Source: Gammaproteobacteria bacterium MOLA455
Lineage (GTDB): Bacteria; Pseudomonadota; Gammaproteobacteria; Pseudomonadales; Porticoccaceae
Length of the DNA: 64,000 bases
Reading direction: 5' to 3'
Assembly (NCBI GenBank): GCA_000511875.1
Contig: AZIN01000001.1
Location: forward strand, 496,001-560,000
Shown: piece after piece, positions 2,495-56,337 of the stretch
Layout of the letters: every line of letters begins with the position of its first letter
Position numbering within the stretch: the first letter of the stretch is position 1
Translations under genes and position numbers: made by a program
Notes under the pieces: generated by a model
What the model was told of the DNA's origin: nothing
The model's input: the letters and a program-made list of their open reading frames with translations, nothing else
Databases searched by the model: none

Positions 2495-2652
2495 ATAGAC
2501 CCTGCTCATACCCTTTCGATCAATCAGGGCCCGCTTATGGCTGCGATTATTTTCAGAAAAAGAGAGCACTTGTCTGAGCGACAGCGAGTTGTGCGAACGC
2601 TGAAAATAAGAGCATCCATGGGACCGATCGCAAGGGTATGAGCAGGGTCTAT
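2495..2652. repeat. Long palindromic element, copy A (158 bp)
   Basis: Perfect 21-bp terminal inverted repeats lie at 2495-2515 and 2632-2652, and an inner pair TTATTTTCAG / CTGAAAATAA flanks a loop of about 45 bases. The core CAGGGCCCGCTTATGG and the loop are shared with copies at 24734-24891 and 56195-56337, but the arm sequences differ and remain self-complementary within this copy. It has no coding capacity. Copies A and B are also both followed by TCACACCCAACA. Confidence 0.85.
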
Positions 2653-2688
2653 TCACACCCAACACCCAACACCCAACACCCAACACCC
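2653..2688. repeat. 7-bp tandem repeat (ACACCCA)
   Basis: About five copies of ACACCCA follow palindrome copy A directly. The rest of the 2301-2764 gap between hisA and the DUF3422 gene, outside this array, the 18-bp array and the palindrome, shows nothing I can name. Confidence 0.8.
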
Positions 2689-2764
2689 GGGATCACAGGT
2701 TTAGAGTTTAGGAACTTCTGGATAGACCCGACTGAACCAACAAAAACCGCCTATCCCCAACAAT

Positions 2765-4024
2765 TCATTTGTCCAACTTATTGCGAATCCTCTTCACCAA
2801 CATCAACGCACCAGTAAAAACAAATGGCGTCATAAACGCCAATGCCATGGTCTTAGACATTGACAAATATTGCTCAACCGGCAACGGCTCAATCAGCAAC
2901 TTAATCAAATTCATACTGTAATAAGTCATGGCCACGACCGACAACCCCTCCACCGTCTGCTGCAAACGCAACTGCAACGCACTGCGCTTATCCATCGAAG
3001 CCAACAAGCGCTGATTCTGCAACTCTAACGACAACTGCAATCGAGAATTCAACAACTCCGTCGTCCGACTAATCCGTTTCGACAAATCCTCCTTACGCTT
3101 AACCACAGACATACAAGTATGAAATGCCGGAATAAAACGTCGCACATGAAACTGCTTCAACGTGCGAAAAGTCGGTAACTTTTGTTCCCTTAACATATCC
3201 AACCGACTTTCAGTCAAACTGAAATACGCCTGAGTCGCAGAAAAACGAAAATTGTGGTCAGCAACCAACTTCTCCAACTGCGTTGCCTCCGCAATCAACT
3301 CAGTCATCAAATTTTGTTCATCCTCCACAGTCTGCAACAGATTAAGTTTGGCATTAGTGTCCACCAACTGCCCCTCCAACTTAGTCACTGCCGGAATCAA
3401 TTCTCGCGCTATAGGCAAAGCCAGCAAAGTCATCGCCCGGTACGCCGCGATCTCCAAAAGGTTACGAATCGCTCGACCAGCCTGCAACGCGTCAATCCCC
3501 TCATCCACCACCAAGGTGCGAATAAAACCATCGTCATCATGCTGCACCGACGTCCACACCGTCGCCAGACCATCATAAATTTTGCTACCCACCAAACGTT
3601 TGCCGTCGAAATAATCTTGTAACTCTTGCGACGCCATAGATGTTGGACGCAGATCTATATGATTAGCTGCGATCACTTCACCAGATAGCCTATCCAACCA
3701 ATCAGCATCGATTAACGAAAACAGATTCCGGCATAACTCAGTTTCAGACTGACGCTGACAAATCACCGTATAGGTGGAAAACTCATTATGCCGTTCCCAA
3801 CGAAAATCAAATTCTTTAAAACTTTGATAGTAACAGCTCTCACCCACCGCAGGCGGCGCAGCATCATACATGGCGGCTAAATCTGAGAGTCGATCAACTT
3901 CTGGCTGGCGGTCGCCAGGATTGAACAGCACCAGACTAGAAACCTGGGCCGGCAAAGACACTACCGGGAAATTGCGGTTGTGCAATTCTTCAATTAATGC
4001 ATTTTTTTGTGGGTGAAATTTCAT
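2765..4024 (-). CDS. DUF3422 family membrane-anchored protein
   Basis: A 419-residue protein starting MKFHPQKNALIEELHNRNFP, the typical N-terminus of the DUF3422 family (about 430 residues, function unknown). Two hydrophobic segments near the C-terminus (around VEGLSVVAMTYYSMNLIKLL and AFMTPFVFTGALML) suggest membrane anchoring after a long helical, coiled-coil-like middle. An upstream ATT-rich extension in the same frame lacks family resemblance, so I chose the internal ATG at 4024. It is monocistronic between repeats and the convergent end of other genes. Confidence 0.75.
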   Translation of the reverse strand: MKFHPQKNALIEELHNRNFPVVSLPAQVSSLVLFNPGDRQPEVDRLSDLAAMYDAAPPAVGESCYYQSFKEFDFRWERHNEFSTYTVICQRQSETELCRNLFSLIDADWLDRLSGEVIAANHIDLRPTSMASQELQDYFDGKRLVGSKIYDGLATVWTSVQHDDDGFIRTLVVDEGIDALQAGRAIRNLLEIAAYRAMTLLALPIARELIPAVTKLEGQLVDTNAKLNLLQTVEDEQNLMTELIAEATQLEKLVADHNFRFSATQAYFSLTESRLDMLREQKLPTFRTLKQFHVRRFIPAFHTCMSVVKRKEDLSKRISRTTELLNSRLQLSLELQNQRLLASMDKRSALQLRLQQTVEGLSVVAMTYYSMNLIKLLIEPLPVEQYLSMSKTMALAFMTPFVFTGALMLVKRIRNKLDK

Positions 4025-4201
4025 GCTGACTGCCCCATTATTATTATTTTTAATACAGTCTTTATTAAATTCAATCCTTTGCTTTACAAAACAGCTGCAA
4101 CAGAGTTTCAACAATGCTCTAAAATATCGTAGTGTACAAGTGCGGCTTCCACCAAGAGGGTAGAAGCCACACCGATTGTTAACTAAAACTCAATCTAAAC
4201 A

Positions 4202-5380
4202 TTATGCAGTTTCAACAGTAAACGTTAACCCCGCATTAGCCTGTAAGCGCTCAATCAACGCCGTACCCATAGCCGGTGCTGAAGTCCAAATACCACCAGA
4301 GGCCAACTCAGGGTTCATTACCAAACAGACCGCACTCTCAGCAATCATCTTCGACGTGGAACCATAACCCGGATCCATATCACCTTTAACGCTAACCCGC
4401 ACAGAGCGACCGTCAGTGGCTTCACCAATTATCAGCAAGTCATAATTACCGTTGACACGCTCATCCAAATCAGGACCTTCACCTGGCTGACGAGGGTCAT
4501 TGGCCATAGAGGTATCTTCGCTCACTGCTTTAGCAATAGCTTCACCGCGATCACCGGGACCGGTAACTAACATTTCGTCATAGACAAAATCAGTACCATA
4601 GGCATGGCCCATCAACTTATTGGAACGGTGTATATTTTTAGTATTAATGCTCGCCATAACAAAGGGTGCAACCCAGCTCTGCAGCGCATCATCAAACATT
4701 GGCTTATCGCCACGCGGTTGATCAGCACCAGTAAAACCTTCAGTGAGTGCAAAGGGGTTACGTAACACACTGATAAGCTCACGGTCTTTACCTGCAGCAG
4801 CCATAGTGGCGCGAAAGCTCGCCAGTGTGCCGCCAGAAAAAGTACCCTTCATTGAACGGACGCGACCTTTAACGCGCGGCACCATGGCACCCAACTGCTG
4901 CTCCGCCATGTGCTGTAGAAACAGTACACCCAGATCAAAAGGAATCGAATCAAAACCACAGGAAAAGACAATTCGTGCACCGCTGGCCTCAGCCGCTGCC
5001 GAGTGCGCTGCAATCATCTGATGCATCCAAGCTGGCTCACCGCAAAGGTCGACATAATCAGTACCATGCTCAGCACAGGCCGCAACCAGCTCATTGCCAT
5101 ACAGCTGGTAAGGGCCGACAGTGGTTAGAATAACCTTGCTGTTTAGCACCATTGCATTCAATGAAGGCGAGTCTGCAGCGTCGGCAACAATTAACGGTAC
5201 ATCAGCTGAAATACCCATCTCATCGCGCACAGCCTCAAGCTTGGCCCGACTACGCCCCGCCATAGCCCACTTTAGCTCATCGTTGACACCGTATTGGTTA
5301 TTCAAATATTCCGCGACCAGCCGTCCAGTAAAACCTGTGGCACCGTAGACCACTACATCTAATTCTCTGCTACTCTGCAT
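4202..5380 (-). CDS. Saccharopine dehydrogenase-like NAD(P)-binding reductase (trans-acting enoyl reductase type)
   Basis: A 392-residue protein with an N-terminal Rossmann motif, VVYGATGFTGRLVAEYL, followed by AGRSRAKLEAV, typical of the saccharopine dehydrogenase/trans-acting enoyl reductase family. The family includes lipid and polyketide enoyl reductases, but most bacterial members have no known substrate. The start at 5380 is set by the family N-terminus; the 67 codons upstream look non-coding. It is transcribed away from the FadB-like gene, so a lipid role is plausible but not shown. Confidence 0.75.
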   Translation of the reverse strand: MQSSRELDVVVYGATGFTGRLVAEYLNNQYGVNDELKWAMAGRSRAKLEAVRDEMGISADVPLIVADAADSPSLNAMVLNSKVILTTVGPYQLYGNELVAACAEHGTDYVDLCGEPAWMHQMIAAHSAAAEASGARIVFSCGFDSIPFDLGVLFLQHMAEQQLGAMVPRVKGRVRSMKGTFSGGTLASFRATMAAAGKDRELISVLRNPFALTEGFTGADQPRGDKPMFDDALQSWVAPFVMASINTKNIHRSNKLMGHAYGTDFVYDEMLVTGPGDRGEAIAKAVSEDTSMANDPRQPGEGPDLDERVNGNYDLLIIGEATDGRSVRVSVKGDMDPGYGSTSKMIAESAVCLVMNPELASGGIWTSAPAMGTALIERLQANAGLTFTVETA

Positions 5381-5570
5381 TGTTTTTAATCTCGTTGTGG
5401 AGTGAAAGGAAAGTTGCTCTTGGCAAAAGTATATCAGCCTAAGGCACCCATAGGACTTTGAGAAAGTGACTGGCCAACCACTGCCATTATTAAGTCGCCA
5501 AAAGTAACCAGAATGTAGACTGCAGCGGTTTAACAATAACAATAAGTAATAATTCAATTTGGGGAACACT

Positions 5571-7700
5571 ATGTCAGACACAAACTCATCAATAACAAGC
5601 TCGTCAGTTACTAGCTATGAAGTGCGCGGCGATATCGGAATCATCTGGATCAACAACCCACCGGTCAACGCACTGTCGCAGGCACTGCGCGACGGTATCT
5701 ATGTCGCAGTTAACGCCGCACAGGACGACGCCACCAAAGCGTTAATACTGATCTGTCAGGGCCGCACTTTTATTGCTGGCGCCGACATCTCTGAGTTCGA
5801 CAAAGCCCCCACCGAACCCTCGTTTAATAAAATTCTCGAAACCATAGAGCAGTCAGCCAAGCCTATGGTCGCCGCGATTCACGGCACCGCACTGGGTGGC
5901 GGACTAGAAACCGCCCTCGCATGCCACTACCGCTGCGCAGTGAGCACAGCCATGGTGGGTCTGCCGGAAGTGAAACTCGGCCTGCTGCCGGGCGCTGGCG
6001 GCACCCAACGTGCACCACGCCTAACCGGCGTCGAAGCTGCGATCACGTTAATTACTGGCGGCAGCCCAATTAACGCTAAAGCCGCTGTCGGCTTAAACCT
6101 GATCGACCACATCGTTGAAGGCGACGACCTGCTTGAAGGCGCTATGGCCTATGCTCATCAATTGCTTGCAGAAAATGCTCCGCTGCGCAAAGTGCGCGAT
6201 ATCAACATAGATCCCGCCTCCTTTGATCGCGCTATTTTCGACAACTCACGCAAGCAACTCAGCCGTCGCGCCCGCGGTCAGCTGGCTCCACAGCGTATTG
6301 TCGACTGCATTGAAGCTGCAGCCACACTGTCTTTCGATGAAGGCTTAGCCACTGAAGGCCGTCTCTTTATGGAACTCAAAGACGGTAGCCAGTCAACTGC
6401 TATGCGCCATATGTTTTTCGCCCAGCGCGAAGCCAACAAGATTAAAGGCTTAGCTAAAGAGACAGCTAAGCGATCCATAAAGTCTGTTGCCATTATCGGC
6501 GGCGGCACCATGGGTGGCGGCATCGCCATGAACTTTGCCAATGTCGGCATTCCCGTAACCATGTTGGAAATTAACGATGAAGCGCTGCAGCGTGGTTTGG
6601 GAATTATCGACAGAAACTATTCCATGACAGTAAAAAAAGGCAAGCTTAGCGAAGAGCAAAAGCAAGGCTGTTTGGGCCTGATTAGCGGCACTACCGACTA
6701 CCAGGATCTGGCCAATGCCGACCTAGTAATTGAGGCGGTGTTTGAAAACCTCGAGATCAAACAACAGGTATTCACCCAGCTCGACAACGTCTGCAAGCCA
6801 GGCGCCATCTTGGCCAGCAATACGTCCTATCAGAATGTTAATGCCATAGCTGCGGTCACCAAGCGACCTGAAGACGTTATCGGCCTGCACTTTTTCAGCC
6901 CCGCCAACATCATGAAACTGCTGGAAATTGTCCGCGCCGACAAGACTTCTGACGAAGTGATTGCCACCGCTATGGACGTGGCTAAAGCCATAGGTAAAGT
7001 CCCGGTGCTTTCTGGGGTGTGTTTTGGCTTTATCGGCAATCGCATGTTCAGCGAGTACGGCCGCGAAACCCAACTCTGTTTGATTGAAGGCGCCAGCGCC
7101 GAACAGATCGATCGCGTAATGGAAGAGTATGGCATGGCCATGGGCCCCTTAGCCGTGAGCGATCTCGCTGGCATTGATATTGGCTACAAGGTTCGCGAAG
7201 GCTTATCCGCAGAAGAAAAAGGCGATCCACGAAGCTTCTGTGTTGCCGACGCACTAGTAGATCAAGGTCGTTTGGGACAGAAAAGCGGTGCCGGGTTTTA
7301 TCAATACGACCCCCAGACTCGCGCTCGTATCAGCGACCCGGAGGTCAGCGCTCTGGTCGAAGCCAAAGCCGCCGAATACGGCGTTAAGCGCAGAGACTTC
7401 AGTGACCAAGAGATCCGCGATCGCCTGTTACTGCCACTGATTAACGAAGGCGCAAAAATCCTTCAGGAGGGCATAGCCCAGCGCTCCGGTGACATAGATG
7501 TGGTCTATGTTTACGGCTACGGCTTCCCGGTCTATCACGGCGGGCCAATGCAATATGCCGACCATCTGGGTCTGGATACAGTCTATAAAAAGCTCAGTGC
7601 CCTGCACCGTGAGAGCGGCGAAGACTATTGGAAGCCAGCGGATTTGATCAAGACTCTGGCCGAAAGCGGCAGCAGTTTTGCCGCGTGGTCTCAGAGGTAG
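5571..7700 (+). CDS. Multifunctional enoyl-CoA hydratase / 3-hydroxyacyl-CoA dehydrogenase
   Basis: A 709-residue beta-oxidation enzyme. The N-terminal crotonase domain (about residues 10-190) contains FIAGADISEF and GGGLETALACHYR with the oxyanion-hole glycines. The NAD-binding domain starts near residue 305 with IIGGGTMGGGIA, followed by the dehydrogenase signature VIGLHFFSPANIMKLLE. A duplicated C-terminal helical domain (YGYGFPVYHGGPM) ends the protein. It hydrates trans-2-enoyl-CoA and oxidises L-3-hydroxyacyl-CoA with NAD. The domain order resembles FadJ/peroxisomal bifunctional enzymes. ATG at 5571 is preceded by GGGGAA. No thiolase gene is adjacent. Confidence 0.9.
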   Translation: MSDTNSSITSSSVTSYEVRGDIGIIWINNPPVNALSQALRDGIYVAVNAAQDDATKALILICQGRTFIAGADISEFDKAPTEPSFNKILETIEQSAKPMVAAIHGTALGGGLETALACHYRCAVSTAMVGLPEVKLGLLPGAGGTQRAPRLTGVEAAITLITGGSPINAKAAVGLNLIDHIVEGDDLLEGAMAYAHQLLAENAPLRKVRDINIDPASFDRAIFDNSRKQLSRRARGQLAPQRIVDCIEAAATLSFDEGLATEGRLFMELKDGSQSTAMRHMFFAQREANKIKGLAKETAKRSIKSVAIIGGGTMGGGIAMNFANVGIPVTMLEINDEALQRGLGIIDRNYSMTVKKGKLSEEQKQGCLGLISGTTDYQDLANADLVIEAVFENLEIKQQVFTQLDNVCKPGAILASNTSYQNVNAIAAVTKRPEDVIGLHFFSPANIMKLLEIVRADKTSDEVIATAMDVAKAIGKVPVLSGVCFGFIGNRMFSEYGRETQLCLIEGASAEQIDRVMEEYGMAMGPLAVSDLAGIDIGYKVREGLSAEEKGDPRSFCVADALVDQGRLGQKSGAGFYQYDPQTRARISDPEVSALVEAKAAEYGVKRRDFSDQEIRDRLLLPLINEGAKILQEGIAQRSGDIDVVYVYGYGFPVYHGGPMQYADHLGLDTVYKKLSALHRESGEDYWKPADLIKTLAESGSSFAAWSQR

Positions 7701-7935
7701 AGTTACCACAGAATAGTTAAAACGCTAGATCAACTGGGTCTGACAGAAAATCGTTAGCCCCAGTTTCCTAAACCACTACTGCGCCAGACCCTCGATTAAA
7801 AATCCCTTCACCACAGGCTTATTAACCCCACTCCCTATTACCCGCAGCCTCATCACTGGTACAATCGCCGCCGCGGCAACCTGTCCGCCAATGTCTCGCG
7901 ATTACAGGCTCAACTATCAAATAAAGGACTTCTAC

Positions 7936-8868
7936 ATGCGGATTCAGCTCTTGCGCTCTTTTGTCGCGCTTACCCTGCTGTTTGCAAACTCTATTTCTAG
8001 CGCCTCGCCCGTGGGCCTCAGCACTAACTCTGCCGCCACTGGTTCTTACAATAGCCCCAGCGCCAAGACACTTGTCTTCAGCGCCATTCCCGATCAGGAC
8101 GAAGCCAACCTGCAAGAGCGCTTTGATAAGGTAGCCGTCTATTTACAGGCTCAGCTGGGCATAGAAGTCCGCTATATTCCGGTTAAGAGCTACTCCGCAG
8201 CAGTCACCGCCTTTCGCAACAATCAGGTTCAACTGGCCTGGTTTGGTGGACTCTCAGGTGTTCAGGCGCGACGTCTAGTGCCCGGCAGCCAAGCCATTGC
8301 CCAGGGCACAGAAGACCCCTTTTTCAGCAGCTATATTATTGCTCACAGCAGCACCGCTATAGAGCCCAGCGACAACTTGCCGACAGCCATCAAAGGCAAA
8401 ACCTTCACCTTTGGCTCCAAGGGATCAACCTCTGGACGACTGATGCCAGAACACTTTATTCGTGAAAATCTAGGCGATACGCCAGACCAGCTGTTTAGCA
8501 AGGTCGGCTACAGCGGCGACCACAGCCGTACTATTGCCCTAGTGCAGTCCGGTGCCTATGAAGTTGGCGCTGTGAACTACAAAGTCTGGGACCAGCAACT
8601 AGCCGCCGGTGAAATCGACAGTGATAAAGTCAAAGTAATTTGGCGCACGCCAAGCTATCCTGACTATCAGTGGACTGTGCGCGGTGACGTCAATGACAGC
8701 TGGGGCGAAGATTTTCAGGCGCGCCTAACTGAAGCCTTATTGGCTATGGACGACCCCGATCTGCTGGCAAGCTTTCCCCGCAGTGGCTTTATTGCCGCAG
8801 ACAATGAACTCTACCAGCCGATTTTAGATACTGCGATTAGCGTCGGTATCATTGATGCTGACAAGTAG
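7936..8868 (+). CDS. PhnD-like ABC transporter substrate-binding protein (putative selenate/phosphonate type)
   Basis: A 310-residue exported protein with a signal peptide (residues 1 to about 24, cleavage near SISSA). The mature part begins KTLVFSAIPDQDEANLQERF and contains VKSYSAAVTAFRNNQVQLAW, typical of the PhnD-like group that databases often label putative selenate-binding. AGGA at 7925-7928 supports the ATG at 7936. It is the first of a three-gene transporter operon with the ATPase and permease. The ligand (phosphonate, phosphite, selenate or other oxyanion) cannot be decided from sequence here. Confidence 0.8.
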   Translation: MRIQLLRSFVALTLLFANSISSASPVGLSTNSAATGSYNSPSAKTLVFSAIPDQDEANLQERFDKVAVYLQAQLGIEVRYIPVKSYSAAVTAFRNNQVQLAWFGGLSGVQARRLVPGSQAIAQGTEDPFFSSYIIAHSSTAIEPSDNLPTAIKGKTFTFGSKGSTSGRLMPEHFIRENLGDTPDQLFSKVGYSGDHSRTIALVQSGAYEVGAVNYKVWDQQLAAGEIDSDKVKVIWRTPSYPDYQWTVRGDVNDSWGEDFQARLTEALLAMDDPDLLASFPRSGFIAADNELYQPILDTAISVGIIDADK

Positions 8869-8877
8869 GCAACAGAG

Positions 8878-9597
8878 TTGAGCCAGAGCACTCACGAGAG
8901 CACTCACCAGAGCACTAGCCAGAGCAGCAACTCGTCAGCAGTGCTGTTCCAGTTTAGCGACCAACGCCTGCAGTATGAAGGGCGTACGCTGTTCGACAAT
9001 CTCTCCCTGAGCATTGCCAAGGGCGAGCGCGTGGCCTTAATTGGTGAGAGTGGCGCCGGTAAATCAACACTGCTTAAAGCGCTGCGCGAGCAGCGTCCGG
9101 ATCAGGTTGCATGGTGTCCCCAGCAACCGGGTCTGGTGCCCATACTGAGCACCTTTCACAATATCTATATGGGCGCACTGAGCTCCCACTCCCTGGCCTA
9201 CAACCTGGTCAATTTGATCAAACCTCTGCCCGGCGCGCTGAGTATTGTTGAGCCAATCGCCAAGCAGCTAGGGCTCGAACAGCACCTGTTTAGCTCCACC
9301 GACAAGCTCTCCGGCGGTCAGCAACAACGCACCAGCATTGGCCGCGCTCTGATTCAACAGCGACCAATTTTTCTCGGTGATGAGCCTGTAGCCAATGTCG
9401 ATGAATATCAGGGTCAAGCACTGCTGCAGCTGATCTGCCAAGGTCATGACACTGTGGTGCTGGCACTCCACGATATAGCCCAAGCCCTGTCCATTTGCAC
9501 GCGCATTATCGGCCTACAAAACGGCGCCATTGTTATCGACGCACCCAGTGACCAATTGCAGGCCAGTGACCTTGCCGGCCTCTATGGCGCTAGCTGA
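8878..9597 (+). CDS. ABC transporter ATP-binding protein of the PhnD-like system
   Basis: A 239-residue ABC ATPase: Walker A GESGAGKST, signature LSGGQQQR, Walker B PIFLGDEP, and H-loop LALHDIAQ. It energises import with the fused permease downstream. The annotated start is TTG nine bases after the previous stop; a GTG at 8941 is an alternative. The residues between them are mostly S/T/H/Q, encoded by a 12-bp repeat, and precede the conserved domain. Its stop overlaps the permease start (TGATG). Confidence 0.85.
   Translation: MSQSTHESTHQSTSQSSNSSAVLFQFSDQRLQYEGRTLFDNLSLSIAKGERVALIGESGAGKSTLLKALREQRPDQVAWCPQQPGLVPILSTFHNIYMGALSSHSLAYNLVNLIKPLPGALSIVEPIAKQLGLEQHLFSSTDKLSGGQQQRTSIGRALIQQRPIFLGDEPVANVDEYQGQALLQLICQGHDTVVLALHDIAQALSICTRIIGLQNGAIVIDAPSDQLQASDLAGLYGAS
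8884..8930 (+). repeat. 12-bp imperfect tandem repeat at the ATPase N-terminus
   Basis: About four 12-bp units of the CAGAGCACTCAC type sit between the TTG start and the conserved ABC domain. They are in frame and encode a hydrophilic ST-rich tail, or lie in the leader if translation starts at 8941. Confidence 0.8.
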
Positions 9598-13187: not shown

Positions 13188-13192
13188 AGGGA

Positions 13193-14207: not shown

Positions 14208-15578
14208 CTAATCGTTTACGTAATGGGCCAAATCATTGGCCGCCATAAATTGGTTTATATCCACTGCCCCGCCACTGGCGATAGACGCCTGAGCGGCACT
14301 GGCAACAATCATCGACCAGAGTCCCTGGAGTGGCGTCGCCGCCGACACAGACTTTTTCTCGAGCCGATCAACAAAGGCAATATGTTCAAAATAAGTAGCG
14401 CCGTGATGGCCGCTCTGCTCTATCAGTGCAGGGTAAGTCACATCTATGGTTTTCGAGGGACCCGATTCACCGACTTCAATCGCCAGGGTCGCTTTGGCAC
14501 CTTGCAGCTGGTGAAAACTAAACACTTCCGTAGCCTTGAGGCGACCGCGGTCACCGCTGACAACTAGCTCTTCACTAAAATCATGACAAAACATATTCAG
14601 GGTGAAATTGGCGCGGGTACCATTGGCGTAATCAATCACCACAAAGGCATGATCATCAATATCAGACTTTTTACCATCGCGCTCAAGGTCGACAAAGTTC
14701 ACCGCTTGACCGCCGCTGGCATAAACCTTCAACGGCTGAGACTGAGCCAGCAGATTAATCAGATCGAAATAATGGCAGCACTTTTCCACCAAGGTGCCAC
14801 CACTGGTGCTATTAAATTTGTTCCACTGTGCCACCTTATCCAAAAAGGGCGGGCGGTATTCGCTGAGGCTAATGGTCTTGATATCACCCAGCGAGGCCCT
14901 CTCCAGAGCCTCGTAAAAAGCCTCGACATACTGCGCCTTATAACGGTACTGCAAACCGATCTGGATAAACGAGGAATAGTCTCTCGCCATAGCTTCAGTA
15001 GCCGCGGCATCCTGCAAGTCAGTGGCCATAGGTTTTTCTAAAAAGATCGGTTTGCCCGACTTGATCGCGGTTTGCAAGATCTCGAAGTGGGTATAATTGG
15101 GCGTGCAGATAAACAGTGCATCTACAGCGGGATCATTACAGGCGGACTCTAGGTCTGGGTAACGCACCAGCGACTTATCCGAGTATTCCGCGAAATTGGC
15201 CTCGGCAATATCCATGCTGTGTTTTTGCGTATCGAAGATACCGTGGACTTGCGCGCGACCCAGTAGCGTCGCGACACGCATATGCTCTTGGCCCATAGTG
15301 CCAGTACCAATCACCACCACGTTATGACTGGGTTTTGGGCGTTGATAGAGGTACTGATCAGATTCAACTATATGTCGCTGCCCCGGCGCATCTTCGAAGA
15401 AGCGTAGTCTCGGTTTAGTCTTGTTAGAATTATTCAATCTGGAGTCCGCATTTATTGTTGTATTTTTTATTCTGCTTTTTACTCTGCTTTTTATTCTGCT
15501 TTTTACTCTGCTTTTTATTCTGCTTTTTATTCTGCTTTTTATTCGATTGCCACGAATTGCTCTCTGGCCCCGCGCCAC
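14208..15578 (-). CDS. Gfo/Idh/MocA family oxidoreductase (start uncertain)
   Basis: The conserved part runs from about residue 57 (KPRLRFFEDAPGQRH) through the Rossmann motif VVVIGTGTMGQEHM to EKPMATDLQDAA, the dinucleotide-binding signature of Gfo/Idh/MocA dehydrogenases. These oxidise or epimerise sugars and cyclitols. The longest frame begins at a GTG inside the 3' end of the symporter gene and reads through a 12-bp repeat as IKSR/VKSR units. A TTG at 15437, after the repeat and with GGA nearby, may be the real start. It lies in the middle of the minus-strand set. Confidence 0.8.
   Translation of the reverse strand: MARGQRAIRGNRIKSRIKSRIKSRVKSRIKSRVKSRIKNTTINADSRLNNSNKTKPRLRFFEDAPGQRHIVESDQYLYQRPKPSHNVVVIGTGTMGQEHMRVATLLGRAQVHGIFDTQKHSMDIAEANFAEYSDKSLVRYPDLESACNDPAVDALFICTPNYTHFEILQTAIKSGKPIFLEKPMATDLQDAAATEAMARDYSSFIQIGLQYRYKAQYVEAFYEALERASLGDIKTISLSEYRPPFLDKVAQWNKFNSTSGGTLVEKCCHYFDLINLLAQSQPLKVYASGGQAVNFVDLERDGKKSDIDDHAFVVIDYANGTRANFTLNMFCHDFSEELVVSGDRGRLKATEVFSFHQLQGAKATLAIEVGESGPSKTIDVTYPALIEQSGHHGATYFEHIAFVDRLEKKSVSAATPLQGLWSMIVASAAQASIASGGAVDINQFMAANDLAHYVND
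15467..15541 (-). repeat. 12-bp tandem array starting at the symporter stop codon
   Basis: On the minus strand the unit is GAATAAAAAGCA. The symporter ends GAA-TAA and the array repeats this so that its frame meets TAA seven times at 12-base steps (15541, 15529, 15517, 15505, 15493, 15481, 15469). In another frame the array encodes the basic IKSR repeats at the N-terminus of the Gfo/Idh open frame. Confidence 0.95.
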
Positions 15579-24733: not shown

Positions 24734-24891
24734 AGCAAAGCCATGCAGACCCTTTGGATCAGTCAGGGCCCGCTTATGGGTCGCTCATTTTCAGATCAAG
24801 AGAGCGCCTTGTTTGAGCGAAAGCGAGTTACGCGAACGCTGAAAATGAGCATCCCATGGGACCGATCGCAAAGGGTCTGCATGGCTTTGCT
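24734..24891. repeat. Long palindromic element, copy B (158 bp)
   Basis: Perfect 23-bp terminal inverted repeats lie at 24734-24756 and 24869-24891, with a perfect inner 12-bp pair GCTCATTTTCAG / CTGAAAATGAGC. The loop is nearly identical to those of copies A and C, and the core CAGGGCCCGCTTATGG is the same. It has exactly the same length as copy A and the same orientation. Confidence 0.9.
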
Positions 24892-38046: not shown

Positions 38047-38556
38047 ATGCCTAACAATCACAACAGCATCGTCCTTATCGGCATGCCCGGCGCCGGGAAA
38101 AGCACCCTCGGGATCCTCTTAGCCAAAGAACTGGGCCTAGATTTTGTCGACACCGATGTCACTATCCAGGTCCGTGAAGGTCGCACTCTGCAGGAAATCC
38201 TCGATCAGAGCGATTATCTCCATCTACGCGAGATCGAGGAGCAGGTTTTGTTGAGCGAAGATATTAGTGGAAAGGTGGTCGCCACTGGCGGCAGTGCAGT
38301 CTATTCAGACGCTGGCATGGTACGCTTAAAACAGATCGCAACCGTGGTGTTTCTCGATGTGCCGCTAGAGGAATTGCGCAAGCGCATAGGCAATTTCGAT
38401 GCCCGGGGCATTGCCCGCAAGCCCAATCAGAGTCTCGAGTCTCTGTTCGATGAACGCTGTGCGCTGTATAAAACCTATGAGGATATACGAGTTGACTGCG
38501 ATCAGCAGTCACTGCAGCAGAGCCTAGACTCGGTGCTGCAGCAACTTGACAGATAA
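38047..38556 (+). CDS. Shikimate kinase family protein
   Basis: A 169-residue P-loop kinase: Walker A GMPGAGKST, the shikimate-binding DTD in FVDTDV, and GGSAVYS, the equivalent of the GGG motif of AroK (the GGS is a slight deviation). The adenine loop and lid lie around RARGIARKPN-like text (FDARGIARKP). It probably phosphorylates shikimate, or a related compound in shikimate-kinase-like paralogues. The last 43 bases are part of an 86-bp segment repeated at 40526. Confidence 0.75.
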   Translation: MPNNHNSIVLIGMPGAGKSTLGILLAKELGLDFVDTDVTIQVREGRTLQEILDQSDYLHLREIEEQVLLSEDISGKVVATGGSAVYSDAGMVRLKQIATVVFLDVPLEELRKRIGNFDARGIARKPNQSLESLFDERCALYKTYEDIRVDCDQQSLQQSLDSVLQQLDR

Positions 38557-38599
38557 CGCTAATCTACTTAAGTACGGTGCGAATCGACTCAGCCAGATA
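38514..38599. repeat. 86-bp direct duplication, left copy
   Basis: Matches 40526-40611 with three differences, all G here and A there. This copy contains the intact 3' end of the shikimate kinase gene and, beyond its stop, a stranded piece of the aminotransferase 3' end (which would read LAESIRTVLK on the minus strand). Confidence 0.95.
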
Positions 38600-40082: not shown

Positions 40083-40532
40083 CTAAGCCTTAGCAAAGCC
40101 CTCTAGCCGCTGAATATTATTATTCCCTATAATCGGTAGAATATTTGCCAGATGTTTTAGCAGCAATGCAACCGCAAGAGAAGCGGCACCCACAGAAAAC
40201 CCCTCAGCCATTTCTGTTAGCTTTAAACTTAAATCCGAGTGCCGTTAATTAATCAGTGATTCACCAGCCAGGGGAGACCCTGCCATAGGCGCAACGCTAT
40301 GCTGTTGCAAATAGACCAAGTCACCATTGATCAGAGCAGTATTTTCTGCAAGGCTAATTTCAATTTGGTCGGTGACCAGCTTATGACTCATTCGCGACTG
40401 ATGCAGTTCTATATCCCAGGGACGGACATTTGAAACCCCAACCACTTTTACCTTGCCACTGTTAACTAGCTGGTCAAGAGCGCCACCAGTTTCATCTGCA
40501 TTTAGCAAAGTATCTGAGCGGTGAAGCAGCAG
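40083..40532 (-). pseudogene. Aldo/keto reductase fragment, broken
   Basis: Read on the minus strand, 40532 to 40245 encodes LLLHRSDTLLNADE, then LDQLVNSGKVKVVGVSNVRP and VAPMAGSPLAGESLIN before a stop. About 40 bases on, another frame gives VGAASLAVALLLKHLANILP ending in a stop at 40083. Together these are the C-terminal half of a YdhF-type aldo/keto reductase with a frame break and internal stop. The N-terminal half is missing, and the fragment begins exactly at the 86-bp duplication, where GCAGCAG may be microhomology. Confidence 0.75.
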
Positions 40533-40611
40533 AGCCTAAACTCGGTGCTGCAGCAACTTGACAGATAACACTAATCTACTTAAGTACGGTGCGAATCGAC
40601 TCAGCCAAATA
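40526..40611. repeat. 86-bp direct duplication, right copy
   Basis: Second copy of 38514-38599. It contains the genuine last 12 codons of the aminotransferase (minus strand) and a stranded tail of shikimate kinase (QSLNSVLQQLDR plus stop on the plus strand). Confidence 0.95.
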
Positions 40612-48230: not shown

Positions 48231-48265
48231 ATTATCCAAATCTAAAAGTGCTCAAGGAGCGTTCC

Positions 48266-49368: not shown

Positions 49369-49395
49369 TTGATATTCTCTTTGGCGACCCCATTT
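49369..49395 (+). promoter_or_regulatory. Candidate sigma-32 heat-shock promoter of hslVU
   Basis: CCCCATTT at 49388-49395 matches the sigma-32 -10 element, and TTGATA at 49369-49374 is a partial -35 element with 13 bases between. hslVU is a sigma-32 operon in E. coli, which supports the reading; the -35 match is only fair. Confidence 0.5.
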
Positions 49396-49424
49396 CAACA
49401 AGTATCACTAAAAGGAGTAAGCTC

Positions 49425-49970
49425 GTGGAACAGTACCGCGGAACAACTATTCTCTCTGTACGTCGCAATGGCAAAGTTGTGATTGGCGGCGACGGCCAGG
49501 TTAGTCTTGGCAATACCATTATGAAGGGTAATGCACGTAAAGTGCGGCGCCTGTACAACGACAAAGTGATCGCCGGTTTTGCCGGCGGCACTGCCGATGC
49601 CTTCACCCTGTTTGAGCGCTTTGAAGCCAAGCTCGAACAGCATCAGGGCAATCTCACTCGAGCCGCAGTGGAGCTGGCCAAAGACTGGCGCAGCGACCGT
49701 ATACTGCGCAAGCTCGAAGCCCTGCTTGCAGTGGCAGACAGTGAAGCCTCGCTGATTATTACCGGCAACGGCGATGTGATTCAGCCCGAAGATGATTTGA
49801 TCGCCATAGGGTCCGGCGGTCCCTTCGCCCAGTCTGCTGCCCGTGCACTTCTCGAGAACACCGATATGGGTGCTCGAGACATTGTTGAGCAGGGTCTGAA
49901 AATCGCCGGTGATATCTGTATCTACACTAATCACAATCGCACTATCGAAGAGCTCGACAGTAATGTTTAA
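49425..49970 (+). CDS. hslV: ATP-dependent protease subunit HslV
   Basis: A 181-residue proteasome-like peptidase. It begins [19 protein letters not shown]; cleavage after Gly6 would expose the catalytic Thr7. [19 protein letters not shown] and [12 protein letters not shown] are family signatures. It forms a dodecamer that works with the HslU ATPase in the cytoplasm to degrade misfolded proteins. The start is GTG with AAAGGAG upstream. Confidence 0.95.
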
Positions 49971-50023
49971 AGGCCATCAGCTGCCCGTCAAAAACTGCGC
50001 CGCTAACCGCCAGCAATAATGCC

Positions 50024-50098
50024 GTGCCCACAGCGTCTCGTAATAGAGGTGCCCACAGCGTCTCGTAATAGAGGTGCCCACAGCGTCTCGCAATAAAA
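50024..50098 (+). repeat. 25-bp tandem repeat, 3 copies, between hslV and hslU
   Basis: Units beginning GTGCCCACAGCGTCTCGTAA start at 50024, 50049 and 50074 and are nearly identical. The array ends about 10 bases before the hslU start, ahead of the ribosome binding site AAGGAC. hslV and hslU are usually only a few bases apart, so the array has widened the gap to 138 bases. Confidence 0.9.
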
Positions 50099-50108
50099 AG
50101 GACCACAT

Positions 50109-51437
50109 ATGTCTCAAATGACCCCCCGCGAAATCGTCCACGAACTCAATCGCCATATTATTGGTCAAGATGACGCCAAGCGCTCAGTGGCCATAGCCCT
50201 GCGCAATCGCTGGCGCCGTGCCCAGTTGGACGATGAGATGCGCAACGAAGTGACACCTAAAAACATTCTAATGATCGGCCCCACCGGCGTCGGTAAAACC
50301 GAAATTGCACGACGTCTGGCTCGTCTCGCCAACGCCCCCTTTGTCAAGGTGGAAGCAACCAAATTTACCGAAGTGGGATACGTGGGCAAAGACGTTGAAT
50401 CGATTGTTCGCGATCTGGTGGAAACCTCGGTTAAACAGGTGCGCGAGCAAGAGCTCAAAAAGGTTGAGCAGCGCGCAGAGGACTCCGCCGAAGAGCGCAT
50501 TCTCGATGTTCTTCTGCCTCCAGCGCGGAGCACAGATAGTCAGTCAGAGCAGAGCAGCTCGACGCGACAGATCTTCCGCAAGAAGCTTCGCGAAGGTGCC
50601 CTCAACGACAAAGAGATCGAAATAGAGCTCAGCCAGATCGCCGCCGGTGTCGAAATCATGGCTCCCCCTGGCATGGAAGAGATGACCTCGCAGCTGCAAA
50701 ATATGTTTAGCAGCATGGGTAAAGGCAAGGCGGTTACGCGCAAGCTCACCGTCGCCGAAGCCCTAAAGAGCCTCAAAGAAGAGGAAGCCGCCAAGCTGAT
50801 CAATGAAGAAGAGATCAAAGCTGCCGCGGTTAGTGCAGCAGAGCAGAATGGTATAGTTTTTCTCGATGAAATCGACAAAGTCTGTCGCCGTGGTGAAGCC
50901 AGTGGTGCCGATGTCTCCCGGGAAGGTGTGCAGCGTGATCTGTTGCCGCTGATAGAGGGCAGCACAGTCTCCACCAAATACGGCATGATCAAAACTGACC
51001 ATATACTATTTATTGCCTCCGGTGCCTTTCATTTGGCCAAGCCATCCGATCTAATTCCTGAACTCCAGGGTCGGCTGCCGATTCGAGTGGAGTTGAACTC
51101 ATTAAAAATCAATGACTTCGAGCGTATTCTTACCGAACCCAAAGCCTCACTCACCAAGCAGTACCGTGAGCTGATGGCCACTGAAGGGTTAGCAATCACC
51201 TTTACTGACGATGGCGTGCGGCGCATTGCCGAGATCGCCTTTGACGTCAATGAAGGCACAGAGAATATTGGTGCGCGACGTCTGCACACCATTATGGAGC
51301 GACTGCTGGAAGAAATTTCCTATGACGCCTCTGACCTGGGTGCAAAAGGCGAAAGCTTCTCTATCGACAAAGCCTTTGTCGACAAGCAGCTCGGCGAGTT
51401 GGCCGCGAATGAAGATCTCACCCGGTTTATTCTCTAA
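50109..51437 (+). CDS. hslU: HslU ATPase subunit of the HslVU protease
   Basis: A 442-residue AAA+ unfoldase: Walker [10 protein letters not shown] (residues 57-65), the intermediate I-domain (about 110-240), Walker [10 protein letters not shown], and arginine finger/sensor 2 region [17 protein letters not shown]. The C-terminus LTRFIL is the tail that inserts into HslV. It unfolds substrates using ATP. Confidence 0.95.
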
Positions 51438-51438
51438 T

Positions 51439-51834
51439 ATGAGCCACGATCTGAGCAGCACAGTTCCCCGGCGTCTTTCAGTCAATCAAGCCAAAGATTG
51501 TCTGACTATCGACTATGCCGGGGACCTCCGCCACCCATTGCCAGCCGAGTATCTGAGGGTGCACTCCCCCAGCGCCGAAGTGCGCGGCCATGGCAAGGGC
51601 CAGGAAGTGCTGCAATTTGGCAAGCGACTGGTATGCATAGATTCGATCAGCAAATCCGGCAACTACGCCATCCAGATCTTCTTTAATGATGGTCATGACT
51701 CGGGGATTTTCACCTGGGATTATCTCTATGATCTAGGTGCCAACTACGACAGCCGCTGGGCGACCTATTTAGAGTGCCTAAACCGAGCCGGCCAAAGTCG
51801 GGATCCGGATACTCAGATCGTTAAACTGGTATAG
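51439..51834 (+). CDS. DUF971 domain protein (gamma-butyrobetaine hydroxylase-like N-terminal domain)
   Basis: A 131-residue protein. PAEYLRVHSPSAEVRGHG and ISKSGNYAIQIFFNDGHDSG, then YLYDLG, match the DUF971 family, which resembles the zinc-binding N-terminal domain of gamma-butyrobetaine hydroxylase. It usually lies after hslVU in gammaproteobacteria. Its function is uncertain; a role in iron-sulfur or related cofactor handling has been proposed for relatives. Start ATG follows the hslU stop by one base. Confidence 0.85.
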   Translation: MSHDLSSTVPRRLSVNQAKDCLTIDYAGDLRHPLPAEYLRVHSPSAEVRGHGKGQEVLQFGKRLVCIDSISKSGNYAIQIFFNDGHDSGIFTWDYLYDLGANYDSRWATYLECLNRAGQSRDPDTQIVKLV

Positions 51835-51947
51835 GCTAGCGATTACACGCAGGTATACATTCAGCCGCCCACATTTGCCGATAGACGTACCTAAATGGTC
51901 GAACTGTCGCTACAATAGTGGCCCCTTATTTAACGATAGCTGGCCCT

Positions 51948-52694
51948 ATGTCTGACAAAACCACCCACTTTGGTTTCCAAACCGTTAATAGCGAGGAAAA
52001 GGCCGGCAAAGTTGCCGACGTCTTTCACTCCGTAGCCTCCAGTTATGACCTCATGAATGACCTGATGTCCGCGGGCATCCATCGCCTGTGGAAGCGCGTC
52101 ACTATCGAGATGTCTGGCGTGCGCCGTGGCCACAAGGTATTAGATATAGCCGGCGGCACCGGTGATCTGGCGGCCAAATTTTCCCGCATAGTCGGCAGTG
52201 ATGGGCTAGTGGTCCTGGCAGATATCAATGACTCTATGCTTAAAGTCGGCCGTGACCGCCTGCTGGATCGCGGCATCGCCAACAATATTCAATTCGCTCA
52301 GGCCAACGCCCAATATCTGCCCTTTCCGGACAATACCTTCGATGTGATTACCATTGCCTTTGGACTGCGCAATGTCACCGATAAAGAGATGGCCCTGCGC
52401 TCCATGTATCGGGTACTTAAGCCCGGTGGCAAGCTGCTGGTGCTGGAATTTTCCAAGCCACCGAACACAGTGCTATCGAAGATCTACGACAGCTATTCAT
52501 TTAACATTCTGCCCAAACTCGGCAAACTCTTTGCCAGTGATGCAGACAGTTACCAATATCTCGCCGAGTCAATTCGCATGCATCCAGATCAGGAAACCCT
52601 GATGGAGATGGTTGAAAAAGCCGGTTTTAGTAACTGCGACTACCACAATATGACCGGCGGCATTGTAGCTCTGCATCGCGGGGTTAAGGCCTAG
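51948..52694 (+). CDS. ubiE: Ubiquinone/menaquinone methyltransferase UbiE
   Basis: A 248-residue SAM-dependent C-methyltransferase. The start [20 protein letters not shown] is diagnostic, with SAM motif [10 protein letters not shown] and [14 protein letters not shown]. It methylates the quinone ring in ubiquinone synthesis. Its stop shares one base with the ubiJ start. Confidence 0.95.
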
Positions 52695-53365
52695 TGTTTT
52701 TCTCCGCACTGCAGTCTGGCGCATTTGAAGCAGCGGAGTCGCTGATCAATGGCGCGCTGAAGTATGACCCGGCGACTTTGCGTAAGATGGGCGAGTTGGA
52801 AGGTAAGGTACTGCTCATCGAGAGCACCATGCCACCCCTCAAGCTGGCCATGGAAACCAACGCTCAGGGCATCATGTTGCACAGTAACTGGCAGGATATA
52901 GCGGACACCACCGTGTCTGGCTCGCTGATTTCCATTGCCGGCCTGGCGATTAACTCAGCCTCTCAAGCATCCTTTTCCGGCAGCGGCGTTAACGTGTCGG
53001 GTGATCTAGACTTATTGTTAAAAATCAATAGCTTAATGGCCGAACTTAATGTTGACTGGGAAGCAATTTTAGCATCAGTTATTGGCGATATCCCTGCTCA
53101 TTTGATGGCCGATAAGCTACGCAAATCGGCCGCCATGGCTAAAGACGTAGGCCAGCGCGCCACGTCTGCGGCTGCCGAAGTGGCGAAAGAAGAACTGCGA
53201 GTCACGCCCACTTCTCCCGAATTTAAGGGCTTCTCGCAACAGGTGCGGGAACTCTCCAGCGGCGTCGAACGAGCCGCTGCACGACTCAACAAAAGTCGCC
53301 AAATTCTCAGTAAAATATTGGCCGAGCAAAACAGCCAAGACCAATCAAAGGGGTCCAACTCTTGA
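52694..53365 (+). CDS. ubiJ: Ubiquinone biosynthesis accessory factor UbiJ (SCP2 domain)
   Basis: The 223-residue protein has an SCP2-like lipid-binding domain (about residues 10-110; [30 protein letters not shown]) and a helical C-terminal half. UbiJ gathers the Ubi enzymes into a soluble complex and binds ubiquinone intermediates. The GTG start overlaps the ubiE stop. It overlaps ubiB. Confidence 0.85.
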
Positions 53366-54987
53366 TCCGCTTGCGTCGTCTGGCTGCGATTGCCAACGTT
53401 GTTTTTAAATACCGCCTCGACACCTTGCTCGACAAAAGTAAGACGCCATTGCCACTGCGTCTGCTGCTGTCCCCAGCGGTTCTCTGGGGCAAACCGAAAG
53501 TCAGCCGCGGTGAACGCCTGCGCAAAGCGCTGGAAAGCTTGGGACCAATATTCGTTAAATTTGGCCAGCTACTGTCTACTAGACCAGATCTAGTGCCAGC
53601 AGATATCTGTTCAGAATTGGCTCAGCTGCAAGATAATGTCACGCCCTTTGATTCAGACAAATTTCGTCAGATTGTAGAAGTCGCTTTGGGGGACTCGGTT
53701 GATGAAATATTCCTCAGCTTTGACACACAACCTCTAGCCTCCGCCTCGGTGGCTCAGGTTCATGCCGCCGTGCTGAAAGACGGCAGCGATGTGGTGGTTA
53801 AAGCGGTGCGTCCGAACATTGAACAGACTATCGCCAAAGATATAGCGCTGATGTATACATTGGCGCGCCTGCTGGCCAAGTACAGTCGGGATGGTCGTCG
53901 TCTGCGTCCCGTGGAAGTGATCGCCGATTATGAGCAGGTTATCTACGACGAGCTCAACTTGCAGGCCGAGGGCGCCAACGCCTCGCTGCTGAGACATAAT
54001 TTCGAAGGTTCAGCACTGCTCTATGTCCCCAAGATCAACTGGGACTATTCCAATGAGAAAGTGTTAGTGATGGAGCGTATTTACGGCACACCTGTGACCA
54101 ACATTGCCGACTTAGAAGAAGCGGGAATCGACTTTAAGCTGCTCGCCGAGCGCGGTGTGGAGATTTTCTTCACTCAGGTCTTTGAGCACAACTTTTTCCA
54201 TGCGGATATGCACCCAGGCAATATTTTTGTCGATACCAGCAATCCGAAAAAGCCCTCTTACATAGGCATCGACTGCGCGATCATGGGTTCTCTGAGCAAA
54301 GAAGATCAGTACTATATGGCGCGCAATCTGATCGCCATCTTCCAGCGCGACTACCGCAAGGTTGCAGAGCTGCATATTCGCTCTGGCTGGGTGCCTAAGA
54401 CTACGCCTGTAAATGAGTTTACCGGTGCTATTCGCGCGGTCTGTGAACCTATTTTTCAACGCCCGCTGAATGAAATATCCCTTGGTCATATGCTCATCAG
54501 CCTGTTTACCACGGCGCGGCGCTTTGAGATGGAAGTACAGCCGTCATTGGTACTATTGCAAAAGACGCTATTGAATATTGAAGGACTGGGGCGTCAGCTC
54601 TACCCGCAGCTGGACCTCTGGACTACCGCTAAGCCATTTTTGGATCGCTGGTTAAAGCAGCGCTACTCCCCCAAGAGCCTGTTCAAACAATTTAAGCAGC
54701 TGGTGCCCGACTGGTTGGAGCAGCTGCCGGAGATTCCACCGTTGATTTATTCGGCGCTTAAGAACGCTCAGCAGACAGCCGAGTATGCCGCACCGACTAC
54801 TGTGATAACCACCCCAGGGCCTGCAGCTAAACAGCCACTGCGCCGATTGATTCCCTGGCTCAGTGCTGCAGCCGTAGGCGTGGGTTTTGGCTTGGCCGCT
54901 GCCAGCTGGACTGAGTCACTGGCGCAAGTGCCTGTGACTAGTCTGATATTGGTTGGGGTTGGCTTGCTGGCGTTGTTACTGCGCTAG
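53362..54987 (+). CDS. ubiB: Ubiquinone biosynthesis ATPase/kinase-like protein UbiB
   Basis: A 541-residue protein of the ABC1/ADCK/UbiB family. [12 protein letters not shown] is the KxGQ motif, [10 protein letters not shown] the alanine-rich loop, and [10 protein letters not shown] and [10 protein letters not shown] carry the metal-binding residues. Two C-terminal membrane helices follow. It is needed for ubiquinone synthesis, probably extracting intermediates from the membrane. TTG start with AAAGGGG upstream, overlapping the ubiJ stop. Confidence 0.95.
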
Positions 54988-55056
54988 CGTTTTTACTGTT
55001 GTTGGCCTACAACAGCTGCCATAATTTCAAGACCGATTAGTAAGGGACTTTTGGAT

Positions 55057-55437
55057 ATGAGTTTTCTCGACGACATAAGCTGGAATAGTGATGGTCTAGT
55101 TCCCGCTATTGCCCAAGACGCGGCAACTGGCCGTGTGCTGATGGTCGCCTGGATGAATGCCGAAGCTCTACAATTAAGTGTCGATGAGAATCGTGCGGTC
55201 TATTGGTCGCGATCAAGAAAGAAGCTCTGGCGCAAAGGTGAAGAGTCAGGTCATGTGCAGCAAATTAAAGAGCTGCGCCTGGACTGCGATAGCGACGTAA
55301 TTGTGATGCAGATCGAACAGCTCGGTGGCATTGCCTGTCATACCGGCCGCGAATCTTGCTTTTATCGAGTGTTTGATAATGGTGAGTGGAAAACCGTAGA
55401 CGCTGTAATCAAAGATCCAAAGGATATTTACCAATGA
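55057..55437 (+). CDS. hisI: Phosphoribosyl-AMP cyclohydrolase
   Basis: The 126-residue protein has [30 protein letters not shown] and the zinc ligands in DCDSD and [12 protein letters not shown]. It opens the purine ring of PR-AMP in histidine synthesis. It is a separate gene, not fused to hisE, as in Pseudomonas-like gammaproteobacteria. AAGGGA supports ATG 55057. Overlaps hisE. Confidence 0.95.
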
Positions 55438-55778
55438 CCAATAGGCAATCAAGCGGCGATGTGTTGGCTCAGCTCTGCGCTGTACTAGAAGCGCGTAAAG
55501 CGGCTTCAGCTGAGAACTCTTATGTGGCCAGTCTGCATAGCAGTGGTCTGAATAAGATTCTCGAGAAGGTTGGCGAAGAGAGTATTGAGACCATTCTAGC
55601 GGCGCGAGACGCGCAGGATAGCGGCGATAATACCAAGCTTATCTATGAGACGGCGGACCTTTGGTTCCACAGTTTGGTTATGCTTTCGCACCTTGGTGAA
55701 GACGCCCAGGCGGTGCTGGCAGAGCTCGAGCGACGGTTCGATCTCTCTGGCCTTAAAGAGAAAGCGGCGCGAGACTAA
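55434..55778 (+). CDS. hisE: Phosphoribosyl-ATP pyrophosphohydrolase
   Basis: A 114-residue MazG-like protein. [20 protein letters not shown] and [13 protein letters not shown] are the metal-binding helices. It hydrolyses PR-ATP to PR-AMP, the step before HisI. Its ATG overlaps the hisI stop (ATGA). The conserved hisI-hisE-tatABC order is seen. Confidence 0.95.
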
Positions 55779-55821
55779 GTAAAAAATTAATATCACTAAT
55801 TCATAGCGAAGGAGTATTGAG

Positions 55822-56073
55822 ATGGGTTTTGGATGGCAGGAACTACTGATTATTTTGGTTATTGTGGCGCTGATTTTTGGCACCAAGAAGTTGCGCGGTA
55901 TTGGCTCAGATTTGGGTGGCGCAGTAAAAGGGTTTAAAGATTCTGTGGGCACTGACGGCGCTGGTGGCGTTGACGCTAGTGTTAAGAAAGAGAGTACTGA
56001 GACAGAGAGCACTGAGACAGAGAGTACTGAGACAGAAAGTACTGCGAAAGAGACTGATAAGCCACAGGGTTGA
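55822..56073 (+). CDS. tatA: Twin-arginine translocase subunit TatA
   Basis: An 83-residue protein with the N-terminal membrane helix ([20 protein letters not shown]) and amphipathic helix ([11 protein letters not shown]) of TatA. It forms the protein-conducting part of the Tat system that exports folded proteins. The C-terminal tail carries EST/TET repeats from four 15-bp units. TatB follows only after 438 bases of repeat DNA. Confidence 0.9.
55990..56049 (+). repeat. 15-bp in-frame repeat in the tatA tail
   Basis: Four units of the GAGAGTACTGAGACA type encode ESTET blocks. The fourth unit is diverged. The frame is kept. Confidence 0.9.
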
Positions 56074-56139
56074 TTGCCTTGGAGGGCTGCTATTTCGCTA
56101 GGACAGCTTAATTGTCGTCCTGACAGAGCCACTTAATGT

Positions 56140-56174
56140 GTCATCACGGCAGAGCATAGCGACGAGGGATCTCG
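56140..56174 (+). repeat. Dispersed REP-like repeat
   Basis: GTCATCACGG ... GACGAGGGATCTC member of the dispersed family, about 20 bases left of palindrome copy C. Confidence 0.6.
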
Positions 56175-56194
56175 TGGTTGAGCGCAGGCAAATC

Positions 56195-56337
56195 CATGCA
56201 GGCCCTTTGCGATCGGTCCCATGTGTTTGTTATTTTCAGCGTTCGCGCAACTCGCTCTCGCTCAAACAGGGCGCTCTCTTAATCTGAAAAGAACAAACCC
56301 ATAAGCGGGCCCTGATTGATCGCAAAGGACCTACATG
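56195..56337. repeat. Long palindromic element, copy C, inverted orientation
   Basis: Terminal arms of 20 bases at 56195-56214 and 56318-56337 pair with two mismatches, and an inner pair (TTTGTTATTTTCAG / CTGAAAAGAACAAA, one mismatch) surrounds the same loop as in copies A and B, read on the minus strand. With flanks it is about 159 bases. It lies between tatA and tatB. Confidence 0.85.

Follow-up and report, generated by a model that had tools for sequence, protein, structure and literature searches.

Why should an intergenic palindrome of about 158 bp keep its ability to fold while the letters of its arms change? The question is raised by three copies of such a palindrome in a window of 64,000 nucleotides (the whole stretch of DNA analysed), which covers positions 496,001-560,000 of contig C1 in the 2.6-Mb genome of Gammaproteobacteria bacterium MOLA455 (G000). 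A first-pass annotation of the window had described the copies as a family with covarying arms, and had offered a non-autonomous mobile element, a structured RNA or a chromosome-organising site as explanations. All three copies are present, with the bounds of copy 3, given as 56195-56337, a few bases short (corrected in Table 1). Here, we report that the fold is maintained across the copies of a genus and that one strand is preferred, and we tentatively favour a slow-moving, non-autonomous repeat, resembling repetitive extragenic palindromes (REPs) and REPINs, that would work as a hairpin of single-stranded DNA.

On the strand that carries the conserved tip (the tip strand), the outer stem spans about 27 bp and closes with GATC. 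It is followed, going inwards, by two 5'-side bulges: the first, AATCA (in copy 2, AGTCA), precedes GG/CC and CCC/GGG pairs, and the second, GCTT, precedes a variable inner stem that closes with TTTTCAG/CTGAAAA. The loop enclosed by the inner stem measures about 44 nt and includes a short stem as well as the tip TGTYTGAGCGNNAGCGAGTT. The sequence CAGGGCCCGCTTATGG is identical in all three window copies; GAGCGNNAGCGAG, which forms the tip's centre, is found three times in the window, always within a copy, against an expectation of 0.06. When the core strands of copies 1, 2 and 3 were folded as single-stranded DNA, z was -4.5, -6.5 and -6.7, respectively, and 0 of 200 shuffles was as good in each case. 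The arms had been called self-complementary, perfectly or nearly so. This is true of copies 1 and 2, which have 11 and 12 pairs beyond the modelled stem, but copy 3 has only four such pairs and its outer arms are weaker.

A covariance model (R1) built from 11 copies finds 17 copies in G000, besides weak antisense shadows of some; the stems of one (C1:616207) share, by eye, little with those of the others. Under strict filters, R1 has matches in 17 of 35 genus genomes, G000 included, and in none of 21 genomes from the rest of the order. The genus, which we take to be that of HTCC2207 (SAR92 group), is one of marine bacteria; its copies are intergenic, and the highest count found is 19 per genome. 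Covariation was assessed on 112 matches from 100 loci of the genus, with several copies of carrier genomes lying outside the alignment (e.g. most of those in G001 and G032); one antisense match (L088:2732-2865:+), retained in this test, was removed otherwise to leave 111 copies. Pairing holds in 95.2% of the alignment cells, two-sided changes are seen at 37 of 43 pairs, 963 cells are changed on both sides versus 288 +/- 15 in shuffles, and the score falls from 0.537 to 0.081 or less when the partner is slid by 1-3 columns; these figures are inflated, as the alignment had been fitted to the structure. A free alignment of left against right arms gave 5,024 Watson-Crick pairs and 477 mismatches, and 11 bp outside the model, which were never fitted, pair as well. 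The arms do covary across the aligned genus copies, as the first-pass annotation had proposed from three, and its further statement that a folded form is maintained while the unpaired loop is conserved is also supported. The first bulge, A[AG]T[CT]A, is kept in 104 of the 111 copies (exactly AATCA in 72), as is the second, G[CT]TT (exactly GCTT in 89), and the 20-nt tip is nearly invariant across the genus.

Pairing is lowest in the genome of the window itself. The mean share of pairs kept in the 17 copies of G000 is 0.898, compared with 0.911-1.0 in the other 15 of the 16 genomes, even though the first model was built from G000's own copies. At 13 loci common to G000 and G023, 42 pairs are broken in G000 but Watson-Crick in G023, versus ten in reverse (p = 9e-6); the same loci hold 15 two-sided, compensated Watson-Crick changes. 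On one reading, the weakened pairing reflects relaxed selection in G000, perhaps after loss of a partner.

A G·T mispair on one strand is an A·C mispair on the complementary strand, and the two can be counted to ask which strand is kept foldable. In the free alignment, in which both strands are treated alike, the tip strand has 197 G·T and 86 A·C mispairs; per locus cluster, 26 favour G·T and nine A·C, with four ties (p = 0.006). The ratio is 94:37 in the 11 bp outside the model and 64:33 around tips outside the genus, where related copies are not independent. Because G·T exceeds A·C on it, the tip strand is the strand kept foldable, and folded as DNA it is more stable than its complement in 98 of the 111 copies. 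The tips themselves fit GAGC-G(N)NA-GCGAG in 84 copies and do not in 27; 41 of the fitting tips have a three-base loop (GAGC-GNA-GCGAG) and 43 a four-base loop (GAGC-GNNA-GCGAG). RNA loops of the GNRA type need a purine at the third position. Here, 38 of 43 GNNA loops in the genus and 51 of 66 from elsewhere have C or T as their third base, leaving a purine in 5 and 15, respectively. GNA or GNNA loops closed by two G-C pairs have been described as very stable DNA mini-hairpins (PMC4686876), and the centre of the tip, GC-G(N)NA-GC, has their form; these mini-hairpins are a structural motif and not an element family. Single-stranded DNA is favoured because of this form and because the strand bias persists, at 57:29 by copy, where the adjacent genes read only the opposite strand. 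A flank profile of 100 copies (11 of the 111 were left out) showed no promoter-like consensus upstream of the element, which likewise favours DNA over RNA.

The copies are mostly inherited in place. They fall into 39 locus clusters, 25 of them with at least two loci, and one gap is occupied in nine genomes; flanking identity at shared loci goes down to about 70%. The neighbours, judged by eye from the starts of their proteins, are presumably leuB-asd, groEL, serS and xseA, among others. Mean identity is 0.81 between orthologous copies (184 pairs), 0.72 within a genome (547) and 0.71 for other pairs (5,364), so that copies are more alike between species at the same locus than among the loci of one genome. 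The element occupies 10 of 28 leuB-asd gaps read; these come from 30 loci, two leuB paralogue loci (45-46% identity) being left out, and in G057, for which no asd was found, 400 bases were read. In one of these gaps, that of G034, only GCGAAGCCATGGCTTCGC is left, where the close relative G017 has outer arms around a full element. At another locus, G000 retains the 5' arm as far as GATC and then jumps directly to the right flank, and at a third it lacks a two-copy stretch between 36-base direct repeats. These two G000 sites are among four compared for G023-specific copies: one is a clean deletion, one a loss between direct repeats, and for the other two a single flank was found. We read the empty sites at the three loci just described as losses by deletion, with insertion an alternative at the first and third. 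Owing to the orthologous gaps, the likeness between species and the loss by deletion, the repeats are taken to be old and slow-moving. In G023, some copies from separate places reach a likeness of 0.90-0.93, which suggests slow copying; tandem copies also exist, for example three at a spacing of about 190 bases. A second long palindrome, with unrelated stems and a loop like GACACGCCGTGAATACATCCATGTAGGCTC, was seen in the leuB-asd gaps of G019, G013 and G002 (L309, L313, L315); this loop does not occur in the window with up to three mismatches.

Relatives of the palindrome exist in other lineages. A strict tip motif is present in at least 80 stretches of genome contigs, 36 of which were taken as the genus, while the 44 others include Arenicellales, Thiotrichaceae, SAR86, Methylobacillus, Lachnospiraceae, Saccharibacteria, other Patescibacteria and Gastranaerophilales. 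Outside the genus, arm complementarity is above the best of 20 shuffles at 38 of 52 tips and not at 14. The distribution is scattered but rare, the 20-base motif being found in 3 of 398 genomes sampled from the phylum (G000 included). A refined model, R2, was run on 369 genomes sampled from the class and has matches at E <= 0.01 in 24 of them (G000 included), with about four expected by chance at that threshold and E-values that are rough; ten others reach 1.1e-4 or better. Many R2 matches span the inner stem and tip only. The SAR86 copies align end to end, keeping AATCA and the tip with changed stems. Among 22 genomes selected for presence of the motif, G063 has 214 tips versus none of the reversed pattern and G079 has 29 versus six. 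The 214 tips of G063 (L218-L224, WFRP01 record set) sit in short hairpins within a longer repeat. Close tips outside the genus (<=900 bp apart) form 18 divergent, six convergent and three direct pairs, 24 of the 27 thus being inverted; in five Arenicellales loci, whole units whose tips are 332-358 bases apart can be aligned with one another. A phage or plasmid origin was considered and rejected. In viral contigs, the 24-base motif was found in no stretch when its loop gap was two bases and in one stretch, near the end of the retrieved sequence, when the gap was one base. Searching with the 37-base tip gave nothing in plasmids or E. coli and a single partial match in phages (22 bases, E 0.5); copy 2 matched neither plasmids nor phages nor, by blastn at E 0.01, any of 5,426 E. 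coli genomes. A looser 14-base pattern, present in at least 120 viral stretches, was taken as chance at that length and was not used.

Gene context was counted after leaving out seven of the 111 copies, which have no gene on one side. By copy, 47 gaps are convergent, nine divergent, 37 tandem with genes opposite to the element and 11 tandem along it; by locus (37), the counts are 16, 3, 13 and 5. The median distance to the stop codon of a gene reading toward the element is 110 bases (84 copies). Four divergent close pairs were found in the genus loci searched (L069-L072), and three of them bracket an open reading frame (ORF), encoding a GFA domain, a metallo-beta-lactamase fold or a 124-residue product without assignment; the last (L070:3271-3805) lies between two divergent elements, followed by what is, by eye, a candidate attC-like site. 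Relatives that were compared carry a single element there, except that L072 corresponds to a pair without that ORF. In alignment coordinates, the single element of G018 appears to be a fusion in which the outer arm comes from one element and the body from the other, and G034 retains the ORF with the first element mostly missing.

How might such an element work? Whenever the strand carrying TGTYTGAGCG..AGCGAGTT is exposed, it would fold into a long hairpin, in which the two 5'-side bulges and a GC-GNA-GC or GC-GNNA-GC mini-hairpin tip would distinguish the folded strand from its complement. Bulges and tip would be read by a strand-specific factor, which acts on single-stranded DNA and which we infer to be a recombinase or a host protein; it may also have spread the copies. 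The stem letters would be free to change as long as pairing holds. Among the explanations first offered, a non-autonomous mobile element fits best, with the qualification that the copies are old and mostly inherited in place; the tip-bearing family is probably an old and slow-moving one, read as a single-stranded DNA hairpin by the predicted factor. Several results weigh against this reading. No partner protein was found in a transposase search that covered the Y1 family alone, and the RAYT family (Y1_Tnp, PF01797) was not found in G000. It occurs in 8 of the 39 genus genomes, among carriers in 4 of 17 and among non-carriers in 3 of 18; as co-occurrence does not support it, RAYT was rejected as the mover of the element in the genus. 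No target-site duplication or new insertion was seen, and the empty sites examined resemble deletions. Most genus copies are single and not paired. As RNA, too, the tip strand is the more stable of the two (101 of the 111 copies), G-U pairing would favour RNA as well, and the 57:29 bias in opposite-strand contexts becomes just 8:6 when counted by locus cluster.

By analogy, recognition of a REP-like kind, specific for a single strand, fits the data best. TnpA-REP has been described as using features of the bulge and loop to recognize a single strand of a hairpin (PMC8266576), and REPINs as inverted pairs of repeats (PMC3116915). The likeness to REP/BIME/REPIN elements with RAYT (TnpA-REP) lies in the extragenic palindrome, and reading of one strand through bulge and loop would be the further parallel; the inverted pair as a unit is seen in the relatives outside the genus, whereas the genus loci have the four pairs described above. 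The palindrome may work as REP/REPIN hairpins do, with their Y1 partner family not found in G000. It is not a GTAG REP: a conserved GTAG at the foot is missing from the 100 flank profiles and the listed arms, a conserved tip taking the place of the foot tag; the size is 158 bp instead of the 20-50 nt given for REPs (PMC8266576); and RAYT was not found in G000. CGTC-tagged REPs, described as palindromes of several phyla that have no dedicated transposase and occur mainly as inverted dimers, are defined by a CGTC tag at one end, a stem of 8-9 bp and a loop of 4-5 bases (PMC3733652), while stems and loop here are far longer and the foot lacks a CGTC tag. ERIC/IRU, YPAL, RPE and other repeats resembling miniature inverted-repeat transposable elements are likewise intergenic long stem-loops of about 100-170 bp, from which the palindrome differs by its conserved tip and freely covarying stems; for ERIC/IRU, sequence similarity is also wanting, judging from copy 2 in the E. 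coli search (the ERIC consensus itself was not aligned). The first-pass view that no known family name fits was upheld: Rfam 15 gave no match at gathering score in the window and nothing near that score for copy 2 and a divergent copy (E up to 10), and, among the papers listed by literature searches on sequence words (judged by title) and on topic, none names the family.

Of the explanations that invoke transcription, a structured RNA deserves the most attention, although we consider it unlikely. The tip strand would be transcribed, from its own start or by read-through, into a hairpin RNA of about 160 nt or part of an mRNA, which would suit the strong covariation with G-U tolerated on one strand, the RNA stabilities and the intergenic copies, seldom between divergent genes (3 of 37 loci). 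It is opposed by the Rfam result, the missing promoter-like consensus, loops that avoid the GNRA purine and a bias that, by copy, persists where read-through would give only the other strand. A bidirectional terminator or mRNA 3'-end hairpin, the least probable of the readings, would agree with the frequency of convergent gaps (16 of 37 loci) and divergent gaps (3 of 37) and with the median of 110 bases to stop codons. However, neither foot shows a T-run in the 100-copy profile, termination would require neither bulges nor tip nor strand bias, and relatives' leuB-asd gaps of 32-53 bases do without the element.

Another possibility, in our estimate improbable, is a site for recombination that is recognized in the form of a folded strand, in the way that integron integrases recognize attC sites, and where gene cargo is gained and lost. 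A folded single strand, unpaired marks and variable sequence are shared with attC (core boxes having been judged by eye), and both the bracketed ORFs (three of four pairs) and the apparent join in G018 point this way; yet the palindrome has a conserved tip and mostly no cassette, cargo is lacking at most copies, and ordinary deletion between palindrome arms accounts for its loss. Gene orientation in tandem gaps was considered as proof of an attC-like mechanism (37:11 by copy), but the argument was dropped because orientation is not significant by locus (13:5, p = 0.10) and is balanced in Blautia and other relatives (11 vs 9; 8 vs 8). Template switching is known to correct quasi-palindromes, and it is conceivable, if very improbable, that it keeps the arms alike without selection, with decay in between. 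The 15 compensated changes over 13 loci between close relatives would follow, but template switching would erase the one-sided bulges, each kept in 104 of 111 copies, and it predicts neither the excess of G·T over A·C (26:9 by locus) nor a nearly fixed tip in other phyla. Nothing was found to support a chromosome-organising site, for which skew and spacing over the whole chromosome were not tested.

If the single-stranded DNA hairpin is the working form, covarying stems, strand bias and fixed tip turn a junk-like palindrome into a defined substrate, whose folded strand and complement could be used as bait. One large REP class apparently has no dedicated transposase, as described in PMC3733652. 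The sharp recognition pattern across phyla offers a route to such a partner, and to the question of when chromosomal single strands fold in vivo. A wider proposal, which we regard as doubtful, is a cross-phylum superfamily of single-stranded DNA hairpin elements that share the GC-GN(N)A-GC tip, carry lineage-specific one-sided bulges, are read by a strand-specific recombinase or host factor and sometimes bracket cargo.

Table 1. Copies of the palindrome in the window and their conserved parts (window positions)
Feature	Positions	Strand	Sequence or remark
Copy 1, whole palindrome	2495-2652	+	outer arms ATAGACCCTGCTCATACCC.. / ..GGGTATGAGCAGGGTCTAT
Copy 1, first 5'-side bulge	2522-2526	+	AATCA
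Copy 1, second 5'-side bulge	2533-2536	+	GCTT
Copy 1, conserved tip	2571-2590	+	TGTCTGAGCGACAGCGAGTT
Copy 2, whole palindrome	24734-24891	+	
Copy 2, first 5'-side bulge	24761-24765	+	AGTCA
Copy 2, second 5'-side bulge	24772-24775	+	GCTT
Copy 2, conserved tip	24810-24829	+	TGTTTGAGCGAAAGCGAGTT
Copy 3, whole palindrome	56188-56341 (G000:C1:552188-552341)	-	arms less perfect
Copy 3, conserved tip	56249-56268	-	TGTTTGAGCGAGAGCGAGTT

Beside copy 3 lie CGTCATCTCGA..GAGAGATC, a repeat resembling REPs, and a hairpin tip GAGCGCAGCGA (56370-56396, 56418-56428), and REP-like sequence of a similar kind flanks many genus copies of the palindrome. The window also contains short tandem arrays at 2267-2441, 15452-15556, 50024-50107 and 55985-56059, with units of 18, 12, 25 and 15 bases, respectively, and two 86-base direct repeats (38514-38599 and 40526-40611), which are 97% identical and lie 2,012 bases apart.

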